Part shown: piece by piece, positions 8,346 through 53,734 of the stretch
Numbering within the stretch: the stretch's first letter is position 1
How the letters are laid out: every line of letters starts with the position of its first letter
Assembly: GCF_000378605.1 (NCBI RefSeq)
Contig: NZ_KB905156.1
Location: forward strand, 539,209 to 603,208
DNA from: Thioalkalivibrio sp. ALJ21
Lineage (GTDB): Bacteria > Pseudomonadota > Gammaproteobacteria > Ectothiorhodospirales > Ectothiorhodospiraceae
DNA length: 64,000 bases
Direction of reading: 5' to 3'
Made by a program: the position numbers and the translations under genes
Notes under the pieces: model-generated
Seen by the model: only the letters and a program-made list of their open reading frames with translations
Database searches by the model: none
What the model was told of the DNA's origin: nothing

Positions 8346-8388
8346 CAGGCCTGCCGGTCGTCGGTATCGGAGGCGGTGCTGGCCTCCA

Positions 8389-8656
8389 GGGAAACACTGA
8401 TCCATGTACACGCTCGCGCTCGAGTCGCTTTTGCGTGCGAACAAGGCGCGGCGACTGCCGTGCAGTCATTCTGCACAAGGGAGCCGCAACGCCGTGCGCG
8501 CACAAAAGCGGCCGAGCCCCTTCGGGGTTGGTGCCCCAGGTTCCCCGATCCTGCGTTGCGCCGCTTGCGGGTAGAACCACTACCCGCTACACGACGCGCC
8601 TTGCCTCGGAAAACCTGGGGTACCAACGCGAGCGTGTTCATGGATCAGTGTTTCCC
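8389..8656 (-). repeat. Interspersed structured repeat, copy A (268 bp)
   Basis: Terminal inverted repeats at 8389-8418 and 8627-8656 agree at 29 of 30 positions (GGGAAACACTGATCCATG, then one mismatch, then ACACGCTCGCG). Flanks CA (8387-8388) and CA (8657-8658) look like a 2-bp target duplication. Internal hairpin 8567-8587 has stem GCGGGTAG with a 5-nt loop. It lies between ubiJ and ubiB, on the minus strand in the orientation where the CCAGGTT domain comes first. Its terminus provides the TGA stop (8645-8647) used by ubiJ. It belongs to the short subtype, like the copy at 51144. No transposase is encoded. Confidence 0.9.
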
Positions 8657-32044: not shown

Positions 32045-34906
32045 ATGGCACAGACCCCGTCGCACGAAATCAAGAACACCACCTGTTACATGTGCGCCTG
32101 CCGTTGCGGCATCCGGGTGCACCTGCGTGACGGGGAGGTGCGCTACATTGATGGCAACCCCGAGCACCCGATCAACGAGGGCGTAATCTGCGCCAAGGGC
32201 GCCTCCGGGATCATGAAGCAGCACTCCCCGGCGCGGCTGACCCAGCCCCTGCGGCGCAAGCCCGGCGCCGAGCGTGGCGACGGCGAGTTCGAGCCGATCT
32301 CCTGGGAGGAGACCTTCGAGATTCTTGCCGAGCGCCTCGGACACATCCGCGAGACCGACCCGAAGCGCTTTGCGCTGTTTACCGGGCGCGACCAGATGCA
32401 GGCCCTGACCGGGCTGTTCGCCAAGCAGTTCGGCACCCCCAACTACGCGGCACACGGTGGGTTCTGCTCGGTAAACATGGCCGCCGGCATGATCTACACC
32501 ATCGGCGGCTCGTTCTGGGAGTTCGGCGGCCCTGACCTGGAACGCTCGAAGCTGTTCGTGATGATCGGCACTGCGGAGGACCACCACTCCAACCCGCTGA
32601 AGGTGGCGATCTCCAAGTTCAAGCGCCAGGGCGGGCGCTTTATCTCCATCAACCCGGTGCGCACCGGCTACTCCGCGATCGCCGACGAATGGGTCCCGAT
32701 CCGTCCGGGAACCGATGGCGCCCTGCTGCTGGCACTGATCCACGAGATCATCAACAAGGGCCTGTACGACCGCGACTTCCTGGTGCGCTACAGCAATGCC
32801 GGCCAGCTGGTGAACATGGACGAGGATCAGGACGACTTCGGCATGTTCCTGCGCACCGAAGAGCCGCCGGAAGAGGGCTGCTACGACGCGCAGAACCAGC
32901 TCTGGTGGGATCGCAAGACCGGTCGCCCGGTGCCCACCCACACCCCGGGCGCCGACCCCTTCCTGCTCGGAGAATTCATACTCGACGACGGGACACGCGC
33001 AAAGCCCTCGTTCCAGCTGTTGCAGGACCGGGTCGCGGAGTACACCCCGGAATGGGCCGAGCGCGTCACCGGCATAGCGGCCAAGGATATCCGCCGCCTG
33101 GCTCACGAGATGGGCGTGACCGCGCGCGACCAGCGCATCGAGCTGCCGATCGCCTGGACCGATTCCTGGGGTGTGGAGCACGAGTCGGTAACCGGCAACC
33201 CGGTCTCCTTCCATGCGATGCGCGGGCTGGCCGCGCACTCCAACGGTTTCCATACCATCCGCGCGCTGTCGATCCTGATGTCGCTGCTGGGCACCATCGA
33301 CCGCCCCGGCGGTTTCCGCCACAAGGCCCCGTTCCCGCGTCCGATCCCGCCCTGCGCCCGCACGCCGAAGGGGCCGGAGGGCGTACAGCCCGGCAAGCCG
33401 CTGGACGGCATGGTGCTCGGCTGGCCGGCCAGCCCGGACGACCTGTTCGTGGACGACAAGGGCGAGCCGGTCCGGCTCGACAAGGCCTTCTCCTGGGAAT
33501 ACCCGCTGGCCGTGCACGGCATGATGCACAACGCGATCACCAATGCCTGGCGCGGCGACCCCTACCCGATCGACACCCTGCTGATCTTCATGGCCAACAT
33601 GGCGTGGAACTCGACCATGAACACGGAAGAGGTCCGCAAAATGTTGAACGACAAGGACGACAACGGGGAGTACAAGATCCCGTTCCTGGTCGTGGCGGAT
33701 GCCTTCCAGTCCGAGATGACCGCGTTTGCCGACCTGGTGCTGCCGGATACCACCTATCTGGAACGCCACGACGTGATGTCGATGCTGGATCGCCCGATCT
33801 CCGAGTTCACCGGCCCGGTGGATTCGGTGCGCATCCCGGTGGTGCCGCCGAAGGGCGAGTGCAAGCCCTTCCAGGATGTGCTGATCGAGCTCGGATCGCG
33901 CCTGAAGCTGCCAGCCTTCGTGAACGAGAAGGGCGACCGCAAATTCCGCGACTACCCGGACTTCGTGGTCAACTACGAGACTGAGCCGGGCTCCGGCATC
34001 GGCTTCCTGGCCGGCTGGCGCGGCAAGGGTGGCGAAAAGTCCCTGCGCGGCGAACCCAACCCCAACCAGTGGGAGATGTACGCGAAGAACAACTGCGTCT
34101 TCCAGTACGAGCTGCCGCGCAGCTACCAGTACATGCGCAACTGGAACAAGGGCTATCTGGAGTGGTCGCAGCGCAACCGCATCACGCGCTACGGCGAGCC
34201 CGTACTGATCCACCTCTACTCCGAGGTGCTGATGAAATTCCGCGCCGCCGCCCAGGGCAAGGGGACCACACGCAAGGTGCCGGCGCACCTGGCCAAGCGC
34301 GTCGAGACCTTCTTCGACCCGCTGCCCTTCTACTACGACCCGCTGGAACACCAGTCCACGGACAAGCACACCTATCCGCTGGCGGCGGTCACCCAGCGGC
34401 CGATGGCGATGTACCACTCCTGGGACTCCCAGAACGCCTGGCTGCGCCAGATCCACGCCCACAACCTGCTGTACGTGAACGCGCGCACCGCGCGGGCCGC
34501 CGGCATCGAAGACGAGGACTGGATCTGGGCGGAGAGCCCCTGGGGCCGGGTGCGCTGCATGGCCAAGTATTCGGAGGCCGTCGAGCCCGGCACCGTCTGG
34601 ACCTGGAATGCGATCGGCAAGGCCGCGGGCGCCTGGAACCTGACCCCGGGTGCCAACGAGTCACGCAAGGGCTTTCTGCTGAACCACCTGATCTCCGAGG
34701 AGCTGCCGGGGCATGACGGCCCGATCTCCAACTCCGATCCGGTGACCGGTCAGGCGGCCTGGTATGACGTCCGCGTACGAATCTACAAGGCCGAAGAAGG
34801 GGAGCCGCAGGAGACCTCTCCCCAGTTCAAGCCGCTCAAACCGTATCCCGGCCAGTCCACACGGGCACGTGTTTTGAACTTCTTTGCGGGCCTGGGGAAA
34901 CGCTGA
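32045..34906 (+). CDS. soeA: SoeA, molybdopterin subunit of cytoplasmic sulfite dehydrogenase
   Basis: 953-residue molybdo-bis(MGD) oxidoreductase of the Psr/Phs/Soe group that oxidises sulfite directly to sulfate. N-terminal 4Fe-4S site CYMCACRCG...VICAKGAS and no Tat signal, as expected for cytoplasmic SoeA. Further cofactor-region motifs include RFALFTGRDQMQAL, WVPIRPGTDGALLLAL and HDVMSMLDRPISEF. The final GKR and TGA are read from the terminus of an inserted repeat. Removing it and 2 bp gives codons GGA-GGC-AAG-AAA-TGA with the TGA overlapping the soeB ATG. Confidence 0.93.
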   Translation: MAQTPSHEIKNTTCYMCACRCGIRVHLRDGEVRYIDGNPEHPINEGVICAKGASGIMKQHSPARLTQPLRRKPGAERGDGEFEPISWEETFEILAERLGHIRETDPKRFALFTGRDQMQALTGLFAKQFGTPNYAAHGGFCSVNMAAGMIYTIGGSFWEFGGPDLERSKLFVMIGTAEDHHSNPLKVAISKFKRQGGRFISINPVRTGYSAIADEWVPIRPGTDGALLLALIHEIINKGLYDRDFLVRYSNAGQLVNMDEDQDDFGMFLRTEEPPEEGCYDAQNQLWWDRKTGRPVPTHTPGADPFLLGEFILDDGTRAKPSFQLLQDRVAEYTPEWAERVTGIAAKDIRRLAHEMGVTARDQRIELPIAWTDSWGVEHESVTGNPVSFHAMRGLAAHSNGFHTIRALSILMSLLGTIDRPGGFRHKAPFPRPIPPCARTPKGPEGVQPGKPLDGMVLGWPASPDDLFVDDKGEPVRLDKAFSWEYPLAVHGMMHNAITNAWRGDPYPIDTLLIFMANMAWNSTMNTEEVRKMLNDKDDNGEYKIPFLVVADAFQSEMTAFADLVLPDTTYLERHDVMSMLDRPISEFTGPVDSVRIPVVPPKGECKPFQDVLIELGSRLKLPAFVNEKGDRKFRDYPDFVVNYETEPGSGIGFLAGWRGKGGEKSLRGEPNPNQWEMYAKNNCVFQYELPRSYQYMRNWNKGYLEWSQRNRITRYGEPVLIHLYSEVLMKFRAAAQGKGTTRKVPAHLAKRVETFFDPLPFYYDPLEHQSTDKHTYPLAAVTQRPMAMYHSWDSQNAWLRQIHAHNLLYVNARTARAAGIEDEDWIWAESPWGRVRCMAKYSEAVEPGTVWTWNAIGKAAGAWNLTPGANESRKGFLLNHLISEELPGHDGPISNSDPVTGQAAWYDVRVRIYKAEEGEPQETSPQFKPLKPYPGQSTRARVLNFFAGLGKR

Positions 34907-35177
34907 ACAATGTACACACTCGCGTTGGCACCCCAGGTTTTCCGAGACAAGGCGCGGTGCGCAGCCGGTAGTGGTTCTACCGGCAAGGACCGCAACGCAG
35001 GATCGGGGAACCTGGGGCGCCACCCCCACAAACCATTGAAAAGCAGGGGCTCGGCCGCTTTTGCATGCGCACGGCGTTGCGGCTCCCTTGTGCAGAGTGA
35101 CTGCACGGCAGTCGCCGCGCCTTGTTCGCACGCAAAAGCGACTCGAGCGCGAGTGCGCACATTGTGCAGCGTTCCCC
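34895..35177 (+). repeat. Interspersed structured repeat, copy B (283 bp), between soeA and soeB
   Basis: Left terminus GGGAAACGCTGAACAATG (34895) and right terminus ending CAGCGTTCCCC (35177) are inverted repeats of each other with a few mismatches. Internal hairpins: 34964-34984 (GCCGGTAG / CTACCGGC, loop TGGTT) and 35090-35106 (GTGCAG / CTGCAC, loop AGTGA). The outer arms of the first domain are GGCACCCCAGGTT and its near-complement before 35015. Long subtype, with an 18-nt linker between the domains. Flanks are TG and CA, not identical. It supplies the soeA stop; the soeB ribosome site (AGGAGG, 35179) is just outside it. Confidence 0.9.
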
Positions 35178-48404: not shown

Positions 48405-48410
48405 TAGAAT
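48405..48410 (+). promoter_or_regulatory. Probable polA -10 element
   Basis: TAGAAT preceded by TG-like bases (CTG TAGAAT) lies 32 bp before the ATG at 48442. No good -35 is visible. If used, the transcript starts near 48417, so the in-frame ATG at 48409 could not be the start. Confidence 0.4.
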
Positions 48411-48441
48411 GGCGCGCACCTTCCGAACGGATGCCGCATTG

Positions 48442-51144
48442 ATGTCACAAGCCCCCCTTGTCCTGGTCGACGGCTCGTCGTATCTGTTCCGGGCCTACCA
48501 TGCCCTGCCGCCGCTTACCGCGCCGGATGGCGCCCCGACCGGGGCGATGATTGGTGTGGCCAACATGCTGCGCAAGCTGCGCGCGGACTACGGCCCGGAG
48601 CACATGGCGGTGGTGTTCGACGCCAAGGGCAAGACCTTCCGCGACGACATCTACCCGGAATACAAAGCCACCCGCCCGCCGATGCCGGAAGAGCTGGCCG
48701 CCCAGATCGAACCGCTGCACGAACTGGTGCGGGCGATGGGCCTGCCGCTTTTGTGCGTCGAGGGGGTGGAGGCCGATGATGTGATCGCGACCCTCGCCGA
48801 CCAGTCCGCCGCAGCCGGGCACGATGTGGTGATCTCCACCGGCGACAAGGACCTCGCGCAGCTGGTGAATGACCGCATCACGCTGGTCAACACCATGAGC
48901 GGGGTCACGCTGGACCCCGAGGGCGTGCAGGAGAAATTCGGCGTGGCCCCAGAGCAGATCGTCGACTACCTCGCGCTGATGGGCGACAGCGTCGACAACA
49001 TCCCGGGCGTGGACAAGGTCGGCCCCAAGACCGCGGCCAAGTGGATCGCGAAGTACGGCGACCTCGACACCATCCTGGAACAGGCCGACGACATCGGCGG
49101 CAAGATCGGCGAGAACCTGCGCGCCGCGGCCGAGCGCCTGCCCACCTCGCGCGAACTGATCACGGTCAAGCGCGATGTCGAGCTGGACGTCGGCCCCGAC
49201 GACCTCAACATCCGCGAGCCGGATCACGAGCGCCTGCTGGAGATGGTGCGCCGCTACGGCTTCACCCGCTGGCGCGCGGAGCTGGAGGGCAGCGAAGACG
49301 AGGCCGCCGGCGGCAATCCGGGCTCGGCGCAGGCGAAGGGCGACTACCGCACGTTGCGCGAGGAGGCCGAACTGGCCGAGCTGCTGGAGCGTCTGGACCA
49401 GGCCGAGCGGGTCGCCTTCGATACCGAGACCACCAGCCTGGATGCGATGCGCGCCGAGATCGTCGGCATGTCCTTCGCCTTCGAGCCGGGGACCGCGTAC
49501 TACCTGCCGCTGGCCCACACCGGGCCGGATGCCGACCCGCAGCTGCCGCGCGCGGAGACGCTCGAACGCCTGAAGCCGTGGCTGGAGTCGGAGCGCCACG
49601 GCAAGCTGGGGCATCACCTGAAGTACGACCGCAACGTGCTGGGCAATCACGGCATCACCCTGCGCGGCATCGTCGACGACACCCTGCTCGAGTCGTTCTG
49701 CCTGGACGCCGGCGCCAACCGCCACGACCTCGACTCCCTGGCCGAGCGCCACCTGGACTACCAGACCACGCACTACGAGGACGTGGCCGGCAAGGGGGCG
49801 AAGCAGATCCCGTTTGCCGAGGTGGATATCGGCATCGCCACCGATTACGCCGGCGAGGATGCCGATATCTGCCTGCAGCTGGATGCGGTGTTCCAGCCAC
49901 GGCTGCAGGAGGCTGAAGGCCCCGCGTTCGTCTACCGCGAGATCGAGATGCCGCTGGTCCCGGTGCTGGCGGATATCGAACGCGTGGGCGTAAAGGTGGA
50001 CCCGGATCTGCTCGGCGAGCAGAGCCAGGAGCTGCTGGCCGAGATGGAGCGCATCGAGCGCGAGGCCTTCGAGGAGGCCGGCGGCGAGTTCAACCTCGGC
50101 TCGCCCAAGCAGATCCAGGAGATCCTGTTCGAGCGCCTGGGCCTGCCGGTGCTGCGGCGCACGCCCAAGGGCCAGCCCTCCACCGCCGAGGACGTGCTGG
50201 AGCAGATGGCGGACGACTACCCCCTGCCGCGCCTGATCCTCGAGCATCGCGGCCTGTCCAAACTGCGCAGCACCTACACCGAGACCCTGCCCCGGCGCAT
50301 CCACCCGGAGACCGGACGGGTGCACACCTCCTATCACCAGGCGGGGGCGGCCACCGGCCGGCTGTCGTCCTCGGAGCCGAACCTGCAGAACATCCCGGTG
50401 CGCACCGAAGCCGGCCGGCGCATCCGCCGCGCGTTCATCGCGGATGAGGGCCACCAGCTGCTGGCGGCGGACTACTCGCAGATCGAGCTGCGCATCATGG
50501 CCCACCTGTCGCAGGATGCCGGCCTGCTGAAGGCCTTTGCCGAGGGCCAGGACATCCACCGCGCGACCGCCGCCGAGGTCTTCGGGCTGGACCCGGAAAA
50601 GGTCTCCGGCGATCAGCGCCGCGCGGCCAAGGCGATCAACTTCGGCCTGATCTACGGCATGTCCGCCTGGGGCCTGGCGCGCAACCTCGGCATCGAGCAG
50701 GGCGAGGCCCGCGAGTACATCGACCGCTACTTCAATCGCTATCCCGGCGTGCACGACTATATGGAGCGCGCGCGCGCCTCCGGGCGCGAGAACGGCTATG
50801 TCGAGACCCTGTTCGGCCGCCGCCTGTACCTGCCGGAGATCAACAGCCGCAACGGGGCGCGACGCCAGCAGTCCGAGCGTGTCGCCATCAACGCCCCGAT
50901 GCAGGGCACGGCCGCCGACATCATCAAGCGCGCGATGGTACGGGTCGCCGATGACCTCGCCTCGGCGAAGATCGAGGCACGCATGATTATGCAGGTCCAC
51001 GACGAACTGGTGTTCGAGGTGGCCGATGCGGCGGTGGAGGACCTGACCACGCTCGTGCGCCAGGCCATGAGCGGGGCCGCCGATCTGGACGTCGAGCTGG
51101 TCGTGGACGTCGGCACCGGCGCCAACTGGGACGACGCCCACTAG
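48442..51144 (+). CDS. polA: DNA polymerase I
   Basis: 900 residues from the ATG at 48442 (MSQAPLVLVDGSSYLFRAYH); an in-frame ATG 33 bp upstream lies within the likely -10 box. 5'-3' exonuclease (residues 1-290: YPEYKATRPPMPEEL, VEADDVIATLA, GDSVDNIPGV), intact 3'-5' exonuclease (AFDTETTSLD, HHLKYDRNVL, YAGEDADICLQ) and polymerase (motif A LLAADYSQIELRIMAHLS, B RRAAKAINFGLIYGMSAWG, C MQVHDELVFEV). The TAG stop is made by TA plus the first G of an inserted repeat; the ancestral stop reads TAA. Confidence 0.97.
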   Translation: MSQAPLVLVDGSSYLFRAYHALPPLTAPDGAPTGAMIGVANMLRKLRADYGPEHMAVVFDAKGKTFRDDIYPEYKATRPPMPEELAAQIEPLHELVRAMGLPLLCVEGVEADDVIATLADQSAAAGHDVVISTGDKDLAQLVNDRITLVNTMSGVTLDPEGVQEKFGVAPEQIVDYLALMGDSVDNIPGVDKVGPKTAAKWIAKYGDLDTILEQADDIGGKIGENLRAAAERLPTSRELITVKRDVELDVGPDDLNIREPDHERLLEMVRRYGFTRWRAELEGSEDEAAGGNPGSAQAKGDYRTLREEAELAELLERLDQAERVAFDTETTSLDAMRAEIVGMSFAFEPGTAYYLPLAHTGPDADPQLPRAETLERLKPWLESERHGKLGHHLKYDRNVLGNHGITLRGIVDDTLLESFCLDAGANRHDLDSLAERHLDYQTTHYEDVAGKGAKQIPFAEVDIGIATDYAGEDADICLQLDAVFQPRLQEAEGPAFVYREIEMPLVPVLADIERVGVKVDPDLLGEQSQELLAEMERIEREAFEEAGGEFNLGSPKQIQEILFERLGLPVLRRTPKGQPSTAEDVLEQMADDYPLPRLILEHRGLSKLRSTYTETLPRRIHPETGRVHTSYHQAGAATGRLSSSEPNLQNIPVRTEAGRRIRRAFIADEGHQLLAADYSQIELRIMAHLSQDAGLLKAFAEGQDIHRATAAEVFGLDPEKVSGDQRRAAKAINFGLIYGMSAWGLARNLGIEQGEAREYIDRYFNRYPGVHDYMERARASGRENGYVETLFGRRLYLPEINSRNGARRQQSERVAINAPMQGTAADIIKRAMVRVADDLASAKIEARMIMQVHDELVFEVADAAVEDLTTLVRQAMSGAADLDVELVVDVGTGANWDDAH

Positions 51145-51410
51145 GGAAACACTGACGAATGTACACACTCGCGTTGGCACCCCAGGTTTTTCGAGACAAG
51201 GCGCGTCGTGCAGCGGGTAGTGGTTCTACCCGCAAGCGACGCAACGCAGGATCGGGGAACCTGGGGTGCCAACCCCACGGGGCTCGGCCGCTTTTGCGCG
51301 CGCACGGCGTTGCGGCTCGCTTATGTAGCTCGGCTACACTGCGCTCACCGCGCCTTGTTCGCACGCAAAAGCGACTCGAGCGCGAGCGTGTACATTCGTC
51401 AGTGTTTCCC
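51144..51410 (+). repeat. Interspersed structured repeat, copy C (267 bp), at the polA stop
   Basis: Termini GGGAAACACTGACGAATG (51144) and CATTCGTCAGTGTTTCCC (to 51410) are perfect inverted complements. Flanks TA (51142-51143) and TA (51411-51412) form a 2-bp duplication. Hairpin 51213-51233: GCGGGTAG / CTACCCGC with loop TGGTT. Second hairpin 51324-51338: TGTAG / CTACA, where a C-G pair in copies A and B is T-A here. Short subtype. It separates polA from the next gene by about 270 bp. Confidence 0.92.
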
Positions 51411-51418
51411 TAACCACA

Positions 51419-51916
51419 ATGTCCGCCCGCCGCTTTAACCGTATAGCCGCCTGGCTGGTCGCACTGCTGCTGCTCGCGACGGGCTGGATGCTGGCCGAGC
51501 GCTACCTGGATGGTGGCGCCCCAATGGGTCTGCCAGTGGTCCTGCCGGAGGACTGCGACCTGAATGCCGGTCCGTGCACGGCCGAACTGGCCAAGGGGGG
51601 CACGATCACGCTCGACATCAGCCCGCGGCCCGTGCCCATGCTGCGCGAACTGGAGCTGCGTCTGGTGCTGGATGAACCGGCACGGGCGGCGCTCGGGACA
51701 CCCGACACGCTGGAACTCGATCTGGCGGGCGTGGAGATGTTCATGGGGTATCAGCGCCCGGCGCTGGAACACGCCGGCGAAGGCGAGTATCACGGCACGA
51801 CCACCCTGCCGATCTGCGTGACCGAATCCATGACCTGGGCCGCCACGGCCATGCCCGCTGGCGCGCCGGACGAAGCCTTTGCACAATTCCGCTTCGTCAC
51901 GGCCCGCGATCACTGA
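51419..51916 (+). CDS. Hypothetical membrane-anchored protein between polA and the SCO gene
   Basis: 165 residues: an N-terminal signal-anchor (WLVALLLLATGWMLAERYL), then an extracytoplasmic beta-rich domain with three cysteines (PEDCDLNAGPCTAEL, LPICVTES). It ends 10 bp before the SCO gene, so a role in copper/cytochrome oxidase assembly is plausible. The ATG is 8 bp after the repeat and has no ribosome site; before insertion it would have lain 7 bp after the polA stop and could have been coupled to polA. Confidence 0.72.
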   Translation: MSARRFNRIAAWLVALLLLATGWMLAERYLDGGAPMGLPVVLPEDCDLNAGPCTAELAKGGTITLDISPRPVPMLRELELRLVLDEPARAALGTPDTLELDLAGVEMFMGYQRPALEHAGEGEYHGTTTLPICVTESMTWAATAMPAGAPDEAFAQFRFVTARDH

Positions 51917-51926
51917 TGAGTCCGTT

Positions 51927-52574
51927 ATGAACCGCATCCCCGTCAGCAGCCTCTTCTGGGCCTTTGCCGTGGTCGCCGCCGGTGCGCTGCTCGTGTACGT
52001 CACCCTGGCTCCGGGCGAACCGCCGCAGCGCGATTTCGCGGCCCACGCGCAATTGCCAGTCGCCGACGAGGTGCAGGGCGGCCCCATCGAACTGCCGGTG
52101 GCCACCCATGCGGAGCGGTTCGACCTGGACGACTACGCGGGCCAGTACATCTGGCTGTACTTCGGCTACACCAGCTGCCCGGACGCCTGTCCGACCAGCC
52201 TCGGCTGGATCGGCGGGGCGCTGAACCGCTTGCCGGAAGAATGGCAGGGCGAGGTGAACGGCGTACTGATCAGCGTCGACCCGGAGCGCGATACCGAGGA
52301 CCGCCTGGCCGACTATGTGGGCCATTTTCATGCCGGGATTCATGCGGCCACCGGACCGGAGGACGACCTGAGGCCCATAGCCGAACGCTACGGCGTCTTC
52401 TACGAGCGGCGCGCAACGGACTCGGCCATGGGCGATGTGATCGACCACAGCTCATCCACCTATCTGATTGGGCCCGATGGCGAACTGCTGGAGATTCACC
52501 CGCACGGGACCAGCGCAGCCGAACTGATCGAGGCCTTGCTGGAACATGCCGGACACCGGGAAAGCGCCGACTGA
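51927..52574 (+). CDS. SCO1/SenC family copper chaperone
   Basis: 215 residues from the ATG at 51927. One N-terminal membrane anchor (LFWAFAVVAAGALLVYVTLA) and a thioredoxin-like SCO domain: WLYFGYTSCPDACPTSLG with the copper-binding CxxxC, VLISVDPERDTEDRLADYV, and the ligand His in VIDHSSSTYLIGPDG. Delivers copper to cytochrome c oxidase. Last protein gene before the small RNA and engB. Confidence 0.92.
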   Translation: MNRIPVSSLFWAFAVVAAGALLVYVTLAPGEPPQRDFAAHAQLPVADEVQGGPIELPVATHAERFDLDDYAGQYIWLYFGYTSCPDACPTSLGWIGGALNRLPEEWQGEVNGVLISVDPERDTEDRLADYVGHFHAGIHAATGPEDDLRPIAERYGVFYERRATDSAMGDVIDHSSSTYLIGPDGELLEIHPHGTSAAELIEALLEHAGHRESAD

Positions 52575-52639
52575 CGGGCCCTCTGGGCGGCCGCGCTCAG
52601 GACTGTGATGCCAATCACGTTCATTTTCCGGAACGGATG

Positions 52640-52667
52640 GAACTCGAGGCAACGAACGCTTTCTTAC
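52640..52667 (+). promoter_or_regulatory. Sigma-E/AlgU-like promoter of the small RNA
   Basis: GGAACTC (52640-52646), a 16-nt spacer and TCTTA (52663-52667) resemble the envelope-stress sigma consensus GGAACTT-N16-TCTGA with one difference in each box. Transcription would start near 52673-52675. ErsA of Pseudomonas, at the same locus, is known to be transcribed by the AlgU sigma factor. Confidence 0.55.
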
Positions 52668-52673
52668 GTTACA

Positions 52674-52784
52674 AGCGCTCTAGCCCAGCGCGAGCCCGCT
52701 TCTCTCCCTGAGCGGGCAGGCCTCGCTCCCCCCTGTCGAGGCCGAATCTTGCCCCGGCCCTCCCCAAGGCCGGGGCATTTTTTT
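52674..52784 (+). ncRNA. Candidate small RNA, Spot 42 / ErsA / sX13 locus
   Basis: About 111 nt between the SCO gene and engB with no reading frame. Three hairpins: SL1 52694-52717 (GCCCGCT / AGCGGGC, loop TCTCTCCCTG), SL2 52719-52743 (GGCCTCG / CGAGGCC, loop CTCCCCCCTGT) and SL3 52751-52776 (GCCCCGGCC / GGCCGGGGC, loop CTCCCCAA) followed by a T7 tract. All three loops carry C-rich CTCCC-type motifs able to pair with ribosome-binding sites, as in sX13. The polA-engB location is where E. coli has spf, Pseudomonas ersA and Xanthomonas sX13. The 5' end is inferred. Confidence 0.75.
52751..52784 (+). terminator. Rho-independent terminator of the small RNA / SCO transcript
   Basis: Perfect 9-bp GC stem (52751-52759 with 52768-52776), loop of 8 nt, then A and seven T (52778-52784). 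It also serves as the third hairpin of the candidate small RNA. Confidence 0.9.
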
Positions 52785-52824: not shown

Positions 52825-53436
52825 TCAGTCTTCGACCGGCTGGAGCCACTCGGTCAACAGGCCGCGCAGGTCGTCGACCCCCTGATTTTTCAATGATGAA
52901 AAGGTCTGCAGGGTCGCCTCGATCCCCAAGCCTTCCAGCTCGCGCTGGGTCGCGTGCAATTGCTTGTCGGCGGCTTGCCGCGAGAGCTTGTCGGCTTTGG
53001 TCAGCAGGCAGTGCAACTGGCAGCGCTCCAGCGGCACCCACTCCAGCAGCTGACGGTCGAGCTCGGTCAGGGGACGACGGATGTCCATGATCAGCACCAG
53101 CCCTGCCAGGCACTCGCGCGACTGCAGGTAATCCCCCAGCAGCCGGTCCCAGTGCTGGCGCTGGCCGGCCGATACCTTCGCGTAGCCATAGCCGGGCAGA
53201 TCCACCAGCCGCCATGCCTCGTCCGGCGGCAGTGCGAACAAGTTGATCTCCTGCGTGCGCCCGGGCGTGCGACCCACCCGGGCCAGGGCCTTGCGCCCGC
53301 ACAGGGCGTTCAGGGCACTGGATTTGCCGGCATTCGAGCGCCCGGCGAAGGCAATCTCGATGCCGTCATCCTCCGGGAGCTGCTCGACCTGGGCCACGCC
53401 CTTAATAAAGGCGGTCTCGCGAAAACGGGGTTCCAT
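52825..53436 (-). CDS. engB: EngB/YsxC/YihA ribosome-assembly GTPase
   Basis: 203 residues from the ATG at 53436 (MEPRFRETAFIKGVAQ). TrmE-Era-like GTPase: G1 GRSNAGKSSALNAL, G2-region GRTPGRTQEINLF, G3 VDLPGYGYAKV, G4 LTKADKLS. Works in 50S subunit assembly. The frame to 53508 would add residues coded by the inserted repeat and is rejected. AAGGACG lies 10 bases upstream of the start, just outside the repeat. Convergent with the small RNA. Confidence 0.95.
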   Translation of the reverse strand: MEPRFRETAFIKGVAQVEQLPEDDGIEIAFAGRSNAGKSSALNALCGRKALARVGRTPGRTQEINLFALPPDEAWRLVDLPGYGYAKVSAGQRQHWDRLLGDYLQSRECLAGLVLIMDIRRPLTELDRQLLEWVPLERCQLHCLLTKADKLSRQAADKQLHATQRELEGLGIEATLQTFSSLKNQGVDDLRGLLTEWLQPVED

Positions 53437-53452
53437 GGGGCGGGGCGTCCTT

Positions 53453-53734
53453 GGGAAACACTGATTAATGTACACGCTCGCTGCTTCGTCGCTTTTGCGG
53501 GCGGACAAGGCGCGGCGGCTGCCGTGCCGTCATTCTGCACAAGGGAACCTCAACGCCGTGCGTGGGCAAAAGAGTCCGAGCCCCTGCTTTGAATGGCTTG
53601 CGGGGTTGGTACCCCAGGTTCCCCGATCCCGCGTTGCGCCGCTTACCGGTAGAATCACTACCGGATGCGCACCGCGCCTTGCCTCGGAAAACCTGGGGTA
53701 CCAACGCGAGCGAGCACATTGATCAGTGTTTCCC
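53453..53734 (-). repeat. Interspersed structured repeat, copy D (282 bp), between engB and cytochrome c4
   Basis: Left terminus GGGAAACACTGATTAATG and right terminus ending CAGTGTTTCCC are inverted repeats. Flanks TT (53451-53452) and TT (53735-53736) form a 2-bp duplication. Hairpin 53646-53664: CCGGTAG / CTACCGG. Long subtype like copy B, with a 16-18-nt linker between domains. Orientation minus, same strand as engB, placed 16 bp upstream of the engB start, so it must have displaced or replaced the ancestral engB promoter region. Confidence 0.9.

Follow-up and report, generated by a model that had tools for sequence, protein, structure and literature searches.

The intergenic region between the polA-SCO genes and engB of Thioalkalivibrio sp. 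ALJ21 most likely holds a real small regulatory RNA gene. Weighing the comparative evidence, we put a probability of about 0.78 on an independent, trans-acting sRNA that would be transcribed by sigma-E at the polA-engB site, would be homologous to anti-hemB and most likely to ErsA, and would pair through its loops with Shine-Dalgarno sequences. The window, i.e., the whole 64,000-nucleotide stretch of DNA that was analyzed, contains one copy of the gene, on the + strand, at positions 52672 to 52784 (about 113 nt, the promoter having served to place the 5′ end and the terminator the 3′ end). According to the proposed mechanism, envelope stress would release RpoE from an RseA-like anti-sigma factor. 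RpoE would then start transcription about 6 to 8 nt past the −10 element, and the terminator hairpin would end an RNA of about 113 nt. The stems would provide a rigid frame presenting three C-rich loops, CUCUCCCU, CUCCCCCC, and CUCCCCAA, which would pair with G-rich Shine-Dalgarno regions (e.g., AGGGAGA) and thereby keep ribosomes from binding to a set of mRNAs. The outcome would probably be a decreased synthesis of envelope or secreted proteins during envelope repair. The first-pass annotation had placed an sRNA at this site, and the homologues, compensatory changes, loops, and promoter described below bear out its finding in essence and most of its interpretation.

Three strong GC hairpins with C-rich loops, followed by a T7 tract, were read directly at positions 52694 to 52784, as first described. 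Hairpin 1 (52694 to 52717) exposes the loop CTCTCCCT, whose core CTCCCTGAG is common to the Rfam family RF02837, and hairpin 2 (52719 to 52743) carries CCCCCC within its loop, the C run being kept in relatives on a covarying stem. The terminator (52750 to 52784), detected by both the terminator scan and the fold, consists of a hairpin with the loop CTCCCCAA (52750 to 52777) and the T7 tract (52778 to 52784). The initial inventory had overlooked an additional 5′ hairpin (GCGCT/AGCGC with the loop CTAGCCC; 52675 to 52691), which is found in the fold and shows compensatory double changes in relatives. The three-hairpin part (52684 to 52784) had a folding energy of −53.3 kcal/mol versus −37.0 ± 3.4 kcal/mol for 200 dinucleotide shuffles (z = −4.82), none of which was as stable (0/200). 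The terminator scan taken alone was at chance level (1 terminator found versus 0.9 expected in 1.4 kb), and the promoter scan revealed no sigma-70-type promoter.

The window contains no Rfam match at the gathering level, and the gene is to that extent unannotated, as had been claimed. At a permissive threshold, however, RF02837 (anti-hemB) matched positions 52693 to 52784 (49.0 bits for a cut-off of 49.5; E = 2e-10) over the entire model (1 to 81 of 81), corresponding to a full-length structural homology. The sRNA is missing from Rfam because its score is 0.5 bit below the curated cut-off. Anti-hemB, which is thus the closest catalogued family, had not been named in the first reading. The anti-hemB RNA (Burkholderia RNA 7; ncS04 of B. 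cenocepacia) and the window sRNA have in common the order of the hairpins, the terminator, and the core CTCCCTGAGCGGG of stem-loop 1, whereas loops 2 and 3 are C-rich in the window sRNA and U-rich in the RF02837 consensus. Unlike anti-hemB, the window sRNA lies between polA-SCO and engB and not beside hemB; at the one locus checked in this respect, hemB adjoins the copy of Polaromonas (L074). In Burkholderia, ncS04 is named as anti-hemB in PMC5688073, where its level is described as not significantly changed in the seven conditions listed and short stress exposures, including SDS, as having largely failed to induce the sRNAs tested. In PMC4603805, ncS04 is described as a 105-nt transcript with the flanking-gene arrangement ← → ← that co-purified with Hfq.

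The covariance search among relatives that had been proposed as a check detected RF02837 in 44 of 58 related genomes, comprising 28/30 genomes of the genus (some matches being weak), all seven genomes from the rest of the family, and 9/21 from the rest of the class. Within the genus, G007 and G023 had matches only at other, weak places. The gathering cut-off was exceeded in 6 of the 58 genomes, all of the same family. Ectothiorhodospira mobilis DSM 4180 (L080) carries the sRNA, and the genome that contains the window belongs to the same family, that of Ectothiorhodospira. At E ≤ 1e-3, matches were obtained in 133 of 276 genomes of the class, 15 of them over the cut-off, and in 3 of 14 control genomes, all under it. 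Since the search is loose at this threshold, class-wide analyses were based on the 60 genomes that matched best beyond the own family (best-match E values of 7e-15 to 3.9e-7; G045 and G050 left out, and a second place on another contig of G148 not included). The 73 class-wide copies include neighboring weak matches, up to an E value of 8.8e-5, and a number of the 60 loci (e.g., L207 and L209) probably reflect chance. Scanning named genomes with a sequence pattern retrieved at least 120 stretches, largely from Betaproteobacteria and some from Gammaproteobacteria, as judged by title; the conservation of loop 1 in these loci results from selection, because the pattern fixes loop 1.

Weak secondary matches to RF02837 were also observed in G006, G007, G015, G017, G023, and G024. 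They all lacked the promoter (scores of 5 to 7) and were not counted as copies; four of the six sit behind frames of a sigma-factor-like operon. Four genomes of the genus carry a conserved 3′-UTR element that begins with TCTCCCCC(G/A)ACCCTC, contains hairpins, and immediately follows an operon whose first gene is sigma-factor-like (L364, 2059 to 2138; L365, 1997 to 2075; L366, 1531 to 1609; L367, 2027 to 2105; sRNA strand). No sigma-E-like promoter of its own was found for this element in the four genomes, and it is possibly a 3′-UTR-derived C-rich sRNA.

RNAalifold analysis of 26 own-family sequences (duplicates, L013, and L024 left out) revealed double-sided changes at 10 of the 21 pairs predicted in the first three hairpins: 3/6 in the 5′ hairpin, 1/8 in hairpin 1, and 6/7 in hairpin 2. 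Two outer pairs, one of which belongs to the 5′ hairpin, were broken in 7/26 sequences each. The terminator stem dropped out of the consensus fold because the alignment is poor at the 3′ end. CCCTGA in loop 1 and the CCC run in loop 2 were invariant in the 26 sequences. The first-pass annotation had staked its reading on the conservation of the three loops in relatives, and 27 of 29 own-family copies retained three CCC-bearing hairpin loops, two such loops being present in the other 2 (the 29 include the window's own copy and three duplicates by RNA sequence). Class-wide, 35 of the 73 copies had three CCC-bearing loops, 29 had two, 8 had one, and 1 had none, versus three loops in 0.5% and two in 4.4% of base-shuffled copies; these counts are based on one fold per copy and on the criterion of CCC in a hairpin loop. 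The C residues of loops 2 and 3 were not selected for by the search, because the RF02837 consensus does not require C at these positions.

Conserved C-rich loops could also belong to a sigma-E-controlled sRNA that mainly sequesters an RNA-binding protein or the ribosome by means of CCUCCC-like loops instead of pairing with specific mRNAs. The loops were indeed kept while the stems varied, multi-copy arrays (see below) would suit a dosage-dependent sponge, and loop 1 resembles the anti-Shine-Dalgarno sequence, CCUCC. CsrA sponges, however, bear GGA in their loops, whereas the loops of the window sRNA are C-rich. In addition, sX13 is described as using its C-rich loops on G-rich mRNA sites (PMC3771888), and we consider sequestration unlikely. 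Loop pairing, by analogy with sX13, is the most likely mode of action of the window sRNA, and both the pairing mode and the targets are matters that we infer.

The putative promoter combines a −35 element of the sigma-E (RpoE/AlgU) type, GGAACTC and not GGAACTT (+ strand, 52639 to 52645), and a −10 element, TCTTA, located 16 nt past it (+ strand, 52662 to 52666). These elements are as initially described, except that GGAACTC starts at 52639 and not at 52640. GAACT was invariant in 26 own-family sequences, as were the T, the C, and the fifth-position A of the −10 element. GAACT-N16-TCnnA was present in 26 of the 27 own-family sequences other than that of the window, at a near-fixed distance upstream and with varying spacer columns. 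The promoter alignment left out L008 (the window) as well as L009, L013, and L024 (other families); L013 and L024 had promoter scores of 6 and 9, respectively, and the second copy of L015, with a 17-nt spacer and a score of 7, was counted as lacking the motif. In the 55 nt preceding the class-wide RNAs, promoter scores of ≥8/10 were reached in 62 of the 73 copies (≥9 in 49; <8 in 11). Scores of ≥8 and ≥9 were found in 1.8% and 0.34%, respectively, of 7,300 random windows drawn from the same loci, which may include true promoters. Among the matches listed for a mixed set, scores of ≥8 were obtained in 89/102 engB-linked copies and in 12/44 copies without engB nearby, after exclusion of 4/106 and 2/46 copies, respectively, with short upstream sequences. 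By their titles, many of the copies without engB nearby are from Comamonadaceae or from genera that we take to belong there. Such copies (e.g., L074 at about 5991 and L151 at about 3025, sRNA strand) are often devoid of a sigma-E-like promoter, and the RNA may have come under a different regulation in them.

The genome that contains the window encodes RpoE (310 bits for a cut-off of 236) and Hfq (98 bits), and the ORF next to rpoE matched RseA (E = 4.5e-14, under the model cut-off). CGAACTT-N16-TCCAT was located 73 nt before the rpoE start codon at 27/27 loci of the genus, many of these upstream stretches being near-identical. This motif scores 8/10, a value that 5.9% of random 100-nt windows also reach, but a function is favored by its constant position and by spacers that vary across 13 loci. 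The sRNA promoter has the same layout as the genus rpoE promoter, and promoter and sigma factor therefore fit within the genus. The sigma-E/AlgU-like promoter first proposed is thus upheld within the family, across the class, and by comparison with rpoE. From these data, we infer the transcription of the sRNA gene, its 5′ end, and its sigma-E dependence; control by stress would be most likely, by analogy with ErsA.

It is improbable that an sRNA of the same family is transcribed here by a sigma factor other than RpoE, even though more ECF-like sigma factors are encoded in the genome, another RpoE-like match is present at a lower score (68 bits), and the motif is mostly lacking both from the copies without engB nearby and from true sX13 loci. 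The motif of the window has the layout of the rpoE promoter found at all 27 genus loci, and ErsA is described as depending on sigma-22 (PMC7565897).

Profile searches assigned the flanking genes to the PolA, SCO1/SenC, cytochrome c, ResB, and EngB/YsxC families. On the + strand, polA (48409 to 51144; Pfam DNA_pol_A, 544.5 bits) and the SCO1/SenC copper chaperone-like gene (51924 to 52574; PF02630, 116.6 bits) precede the sRNA gene, and engB/ysxC (52825 to 53508, − strand, longest-ORF coordinates; TIGR03598, 223.1 bits, over the cut-off) is convergent with it. The gene block engB-cytochrome c-resB recurs in relatives. At the 28 own-family loci, EngB was downstream in 26, PolA upstream in 18, and SCO upstream in 16, and PolA and/or EngB was in place in 26. 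The 60 class-wide loci displayed PolA upstream in 32, EngB downstream in 33, either in 45, and both in 20; the gene order was different in 3, and the fetched stretch contained neither PolA nor EngB in 12. These neighbor counts, including those for SCO, are underestimates owing to short stretches and contig ends. Among the matches listed for the pattern scan, EngB was downstream and convergent in 77/120 loci, a count lowered by the same factors.

Two other features of this region were observed. An ORF of 165 amino acids between polA and the SCO gene (51419 to 51916) has no Pfam match and is conserved beside SCO in relatives. The window also contains four copies of an interspersed, MITE-like repeat of about 270 nt with terminal inverted repeats of about 30 nt (51144 to 51411, 53453 to 53734, 8388 to 8656, and 34895 to 35177), which are 78 to 89% identical to the first; two of them flank the SCO-sRNA-engB block, and more copies occur elsewhere in the genome.

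The gene context bears on the role that was suggested for the sRNA in envelope or redox stress. The envelope part is consistent with the envelope-stress-type promoter motif, whereas the redox part reflects only the neighborhood, SCO being present at 16/28 own-family loci. Likewise, the neighborhood would be the only tie of the sRNA to copper or cytochrome assembly, and the sRNA gene occurs elsewhere without SCO. The context also bears on the idea that no RNA of its own is made from this region, which would simply be the terminator and 3′ UTR of the SCO message. The SCO gene ends at 52574, the −35 element starts only 64 nt past this stop codon, and 3′-UTR-derived sRNAs do exist. Nonetheless, we see very little chance that this idea is correct: the conserved promoter is the gene's own, the gene also follows polA, hemB, or still other genes and occurs in different arrangements, and its relative in Burkholderia has a transcript entry of its own (PMC4603805). 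A mere terminator between the convergent SCO and engB genes, with the other hairpins being incidental, would account for a strong hairpin and T tract at this place but is scarcely tenable in view of the compensatory changes in the hairpins, the kept loops and promoter, and the tandem copies, which mostly have a promoter each.

An independent sRNA at this site invites comparison with Spot 42 of E. coli, ErsA of Pseudomonas, and sX13 of Xanthomonas, to which the first-pass annotation had related it. The likeness extends to location, C-rich loops, and an ErsA-type promoter, but for Spot 42 it does not go beyond location. Spot 42 is described as adjoining polA (PMC3771888), where the title of a reference presents it as repressed by cAMP-CRP. 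Membership of the window sRNA in the Spot 42 family (RF00021) was rejected (15.3 bits for a cut-off of 80; E = 3.1).

The ErsA model (RF01719) scored 16.1 bits on the window sRNA, under its cut-off of 50. It matched in 12 of the 276 class genomes, with a full ErsA in G182 (121 bits), and 11 of the 12 loci were beside PolA and/or EngB. ErsA is described as encoded between polA and engB (PMC8575079), as having a strict requirement for sigma-22 (PMC7565897), and as regulating algC, amrZ, and oprD in P. aeruginosa (PMC8575079, PMC7565897). The polA-engB location is common to ErsA and the window sRNA, the window having in addition SCO and the unnamed ORF after polA. At the full ErsA locus (L214), TGAACTT-N17-TCATA was found 56 nt before the start of the model, with a spacer of 17 nt versus 16 nt in the window. 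As read from this locus, ErsA has its C-rich loop in the terminator hairpin and, unlike the window sRNA, no CTCCCTGAG hairpin.

For sX13, the model (RF02232) scored 25.2 bits on the window sRNA for a cut-off of 50 and matched in 15 of the 276 class genomes. Of 12 sX13-model loci examined, 8 were beside PolA and/or EngB and 4 elsewhere. The gene of sX13 is described as lying beside polA and its RNA as forming three stem-loops with C-rich loops, repression depending on C-rich motifs of the sRNA together with G-rich ones of its targets, with Hfq being dispensable (PMC3771888). Three stem-loops and C-rich loops are common to sX13 and the window sRNA, as had been pointed out, but the likeness does not include the promoter. 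The three full sX13 loci (L226 to L228; 103 to 125 bits, PolA upstream) had promoter scores of only 6 to 7; true sX13 combines the same locus and C-rich loops with the lack of a sigma-E-like promoter. The alpha-r7 sRNAs of Alphaproteobacteria are also described as having a polA locus, three stem-loops, and apical C-rich motifs (PMC3771888). The permissive Rfam scan returned no match of the window sRNA to a family of this type.

The family models nevertheless converge on some loci. The ErsA and RF02837 models meet at seven places (G190, G292, G273, G095, G176, G089, and G308), and the sX13 and RF02837 models have places in common in G190 (48.3 bits for a cut-off of 50), G109, G243, and G283. 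In the array of G190, each of the three models found a match, those of ErsA and sX13 lying on different copies. Because the ErsA and sX13 models match several RF02837 places, anti-hemB and ErsA probably form one sigma-E-driven family, and the same overlap suggests that the common origin extends to sX13. A common origin of the three families falls short of proof because short hairpins rich in C could have arisen by convergence.

Tandem arrays of two to four copies were present at 7 of the 60 class-wide loci (L155, L159, L183, L195, L197, L198, and L202), five of them beside PolA and/or EngB in the fetched stretch (not L155 and L159). Nineteen of the 20 array copies had their own sigma-E-like promoter with a score of ≥8/10. 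In L197 and L183, the later copies match RF02837 weakly and have an altered first hairpin. L195 (2615 to 3350, sRNA strand) contains four copies between polA and engB, which agree fully in the loop cores TTTTCTCCCTGA, CCCCAAG, and TTCCCCC and diverge in the spacers and in portions of the stems. Nitrosospira briensis Nsp8 has two copies 123 nt apart, with promoter scores of 10/10 and 7. In the same family outside the genus, two same-strand RF02837 matches in a row were found in 4 of 7 genomes (G031, G033, G034, and G035).

Potential targets were sought as loop-complementary motifs upstream of start codons. CAGGGAG-N4-10-ATG occurred 62 times in the genome versus 8 times for the reversed pattern, an excess that mainly reflects the Shine-Dalgarno-like nature of the motif, and GGGGGGAG-N4-10-ATG occurred 5 times versus 2. 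Nineteen of the 62 CAGGGAG frames were shorter than 40 codons, and the sites of L283 and L284 abut copies of the interspersed repeat. The frames behind the sites, named by sequence reading, included type IV pilin-like, TonB-type receptor, cytochrome c, ferrochelatase-like, and ZIP-like frames. For the TonB-type receptor, six of the seven close orthologues carried AGGGAGA ahead of the start codon (CAGGGAG in 2 and AAGGGAG in 4; 30 genus genomes searched), a figure that comes from close relatives, amounts to one data point, and may reflect ordinary Shine-Dalgarno conservation. In the exceptional genome, G017, loop 1 is CCCTCCCT and not YTCTCCCT. This coincidence is suggestive and makes the TonB-type receptor a candidate target; we claim none.

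In a wider reading, to which we give an even chance, anti-hemB, ErsA, and the window sRNA would be members of one old sigma-E-dependent family residing at polA-engB in Beta- and Gammaproteobacteria and fulfilling there the role of the sRNAs MicA and RybB of E. coli. Lineages would tune this family by changing how many C-rich loops the RNA has and by multiplying the gene to as many as four tandem copies, nearly all of which have a sigma-E promoter of their own and have retained the loops, and sX13 would be a branch in which the loops were kept and the promoter was lost. Our search, mostly of open-access papers, found no literature linking anti-hemB to RpoE or describing arrays at polA-engB. The putative sigma-E-type promoter of anti-hemB, the apparent overlap of three named families at certain places, and the arrays would thus go beyond the print that was found. 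Placement of the sRNA at polA/engB extends to over a hundred loci (45/60, 26/28, and 77/120 among the matches listed), at some of which three separately named RNA families meet, and most of the engB-side copies scored have an envelope-stress-type promoter. The anti-hemB RNA of Burkholderia would become a predicted member of the RpoE regulon, and the natural arrays of one to four copies allow a test of sRNA dosage.
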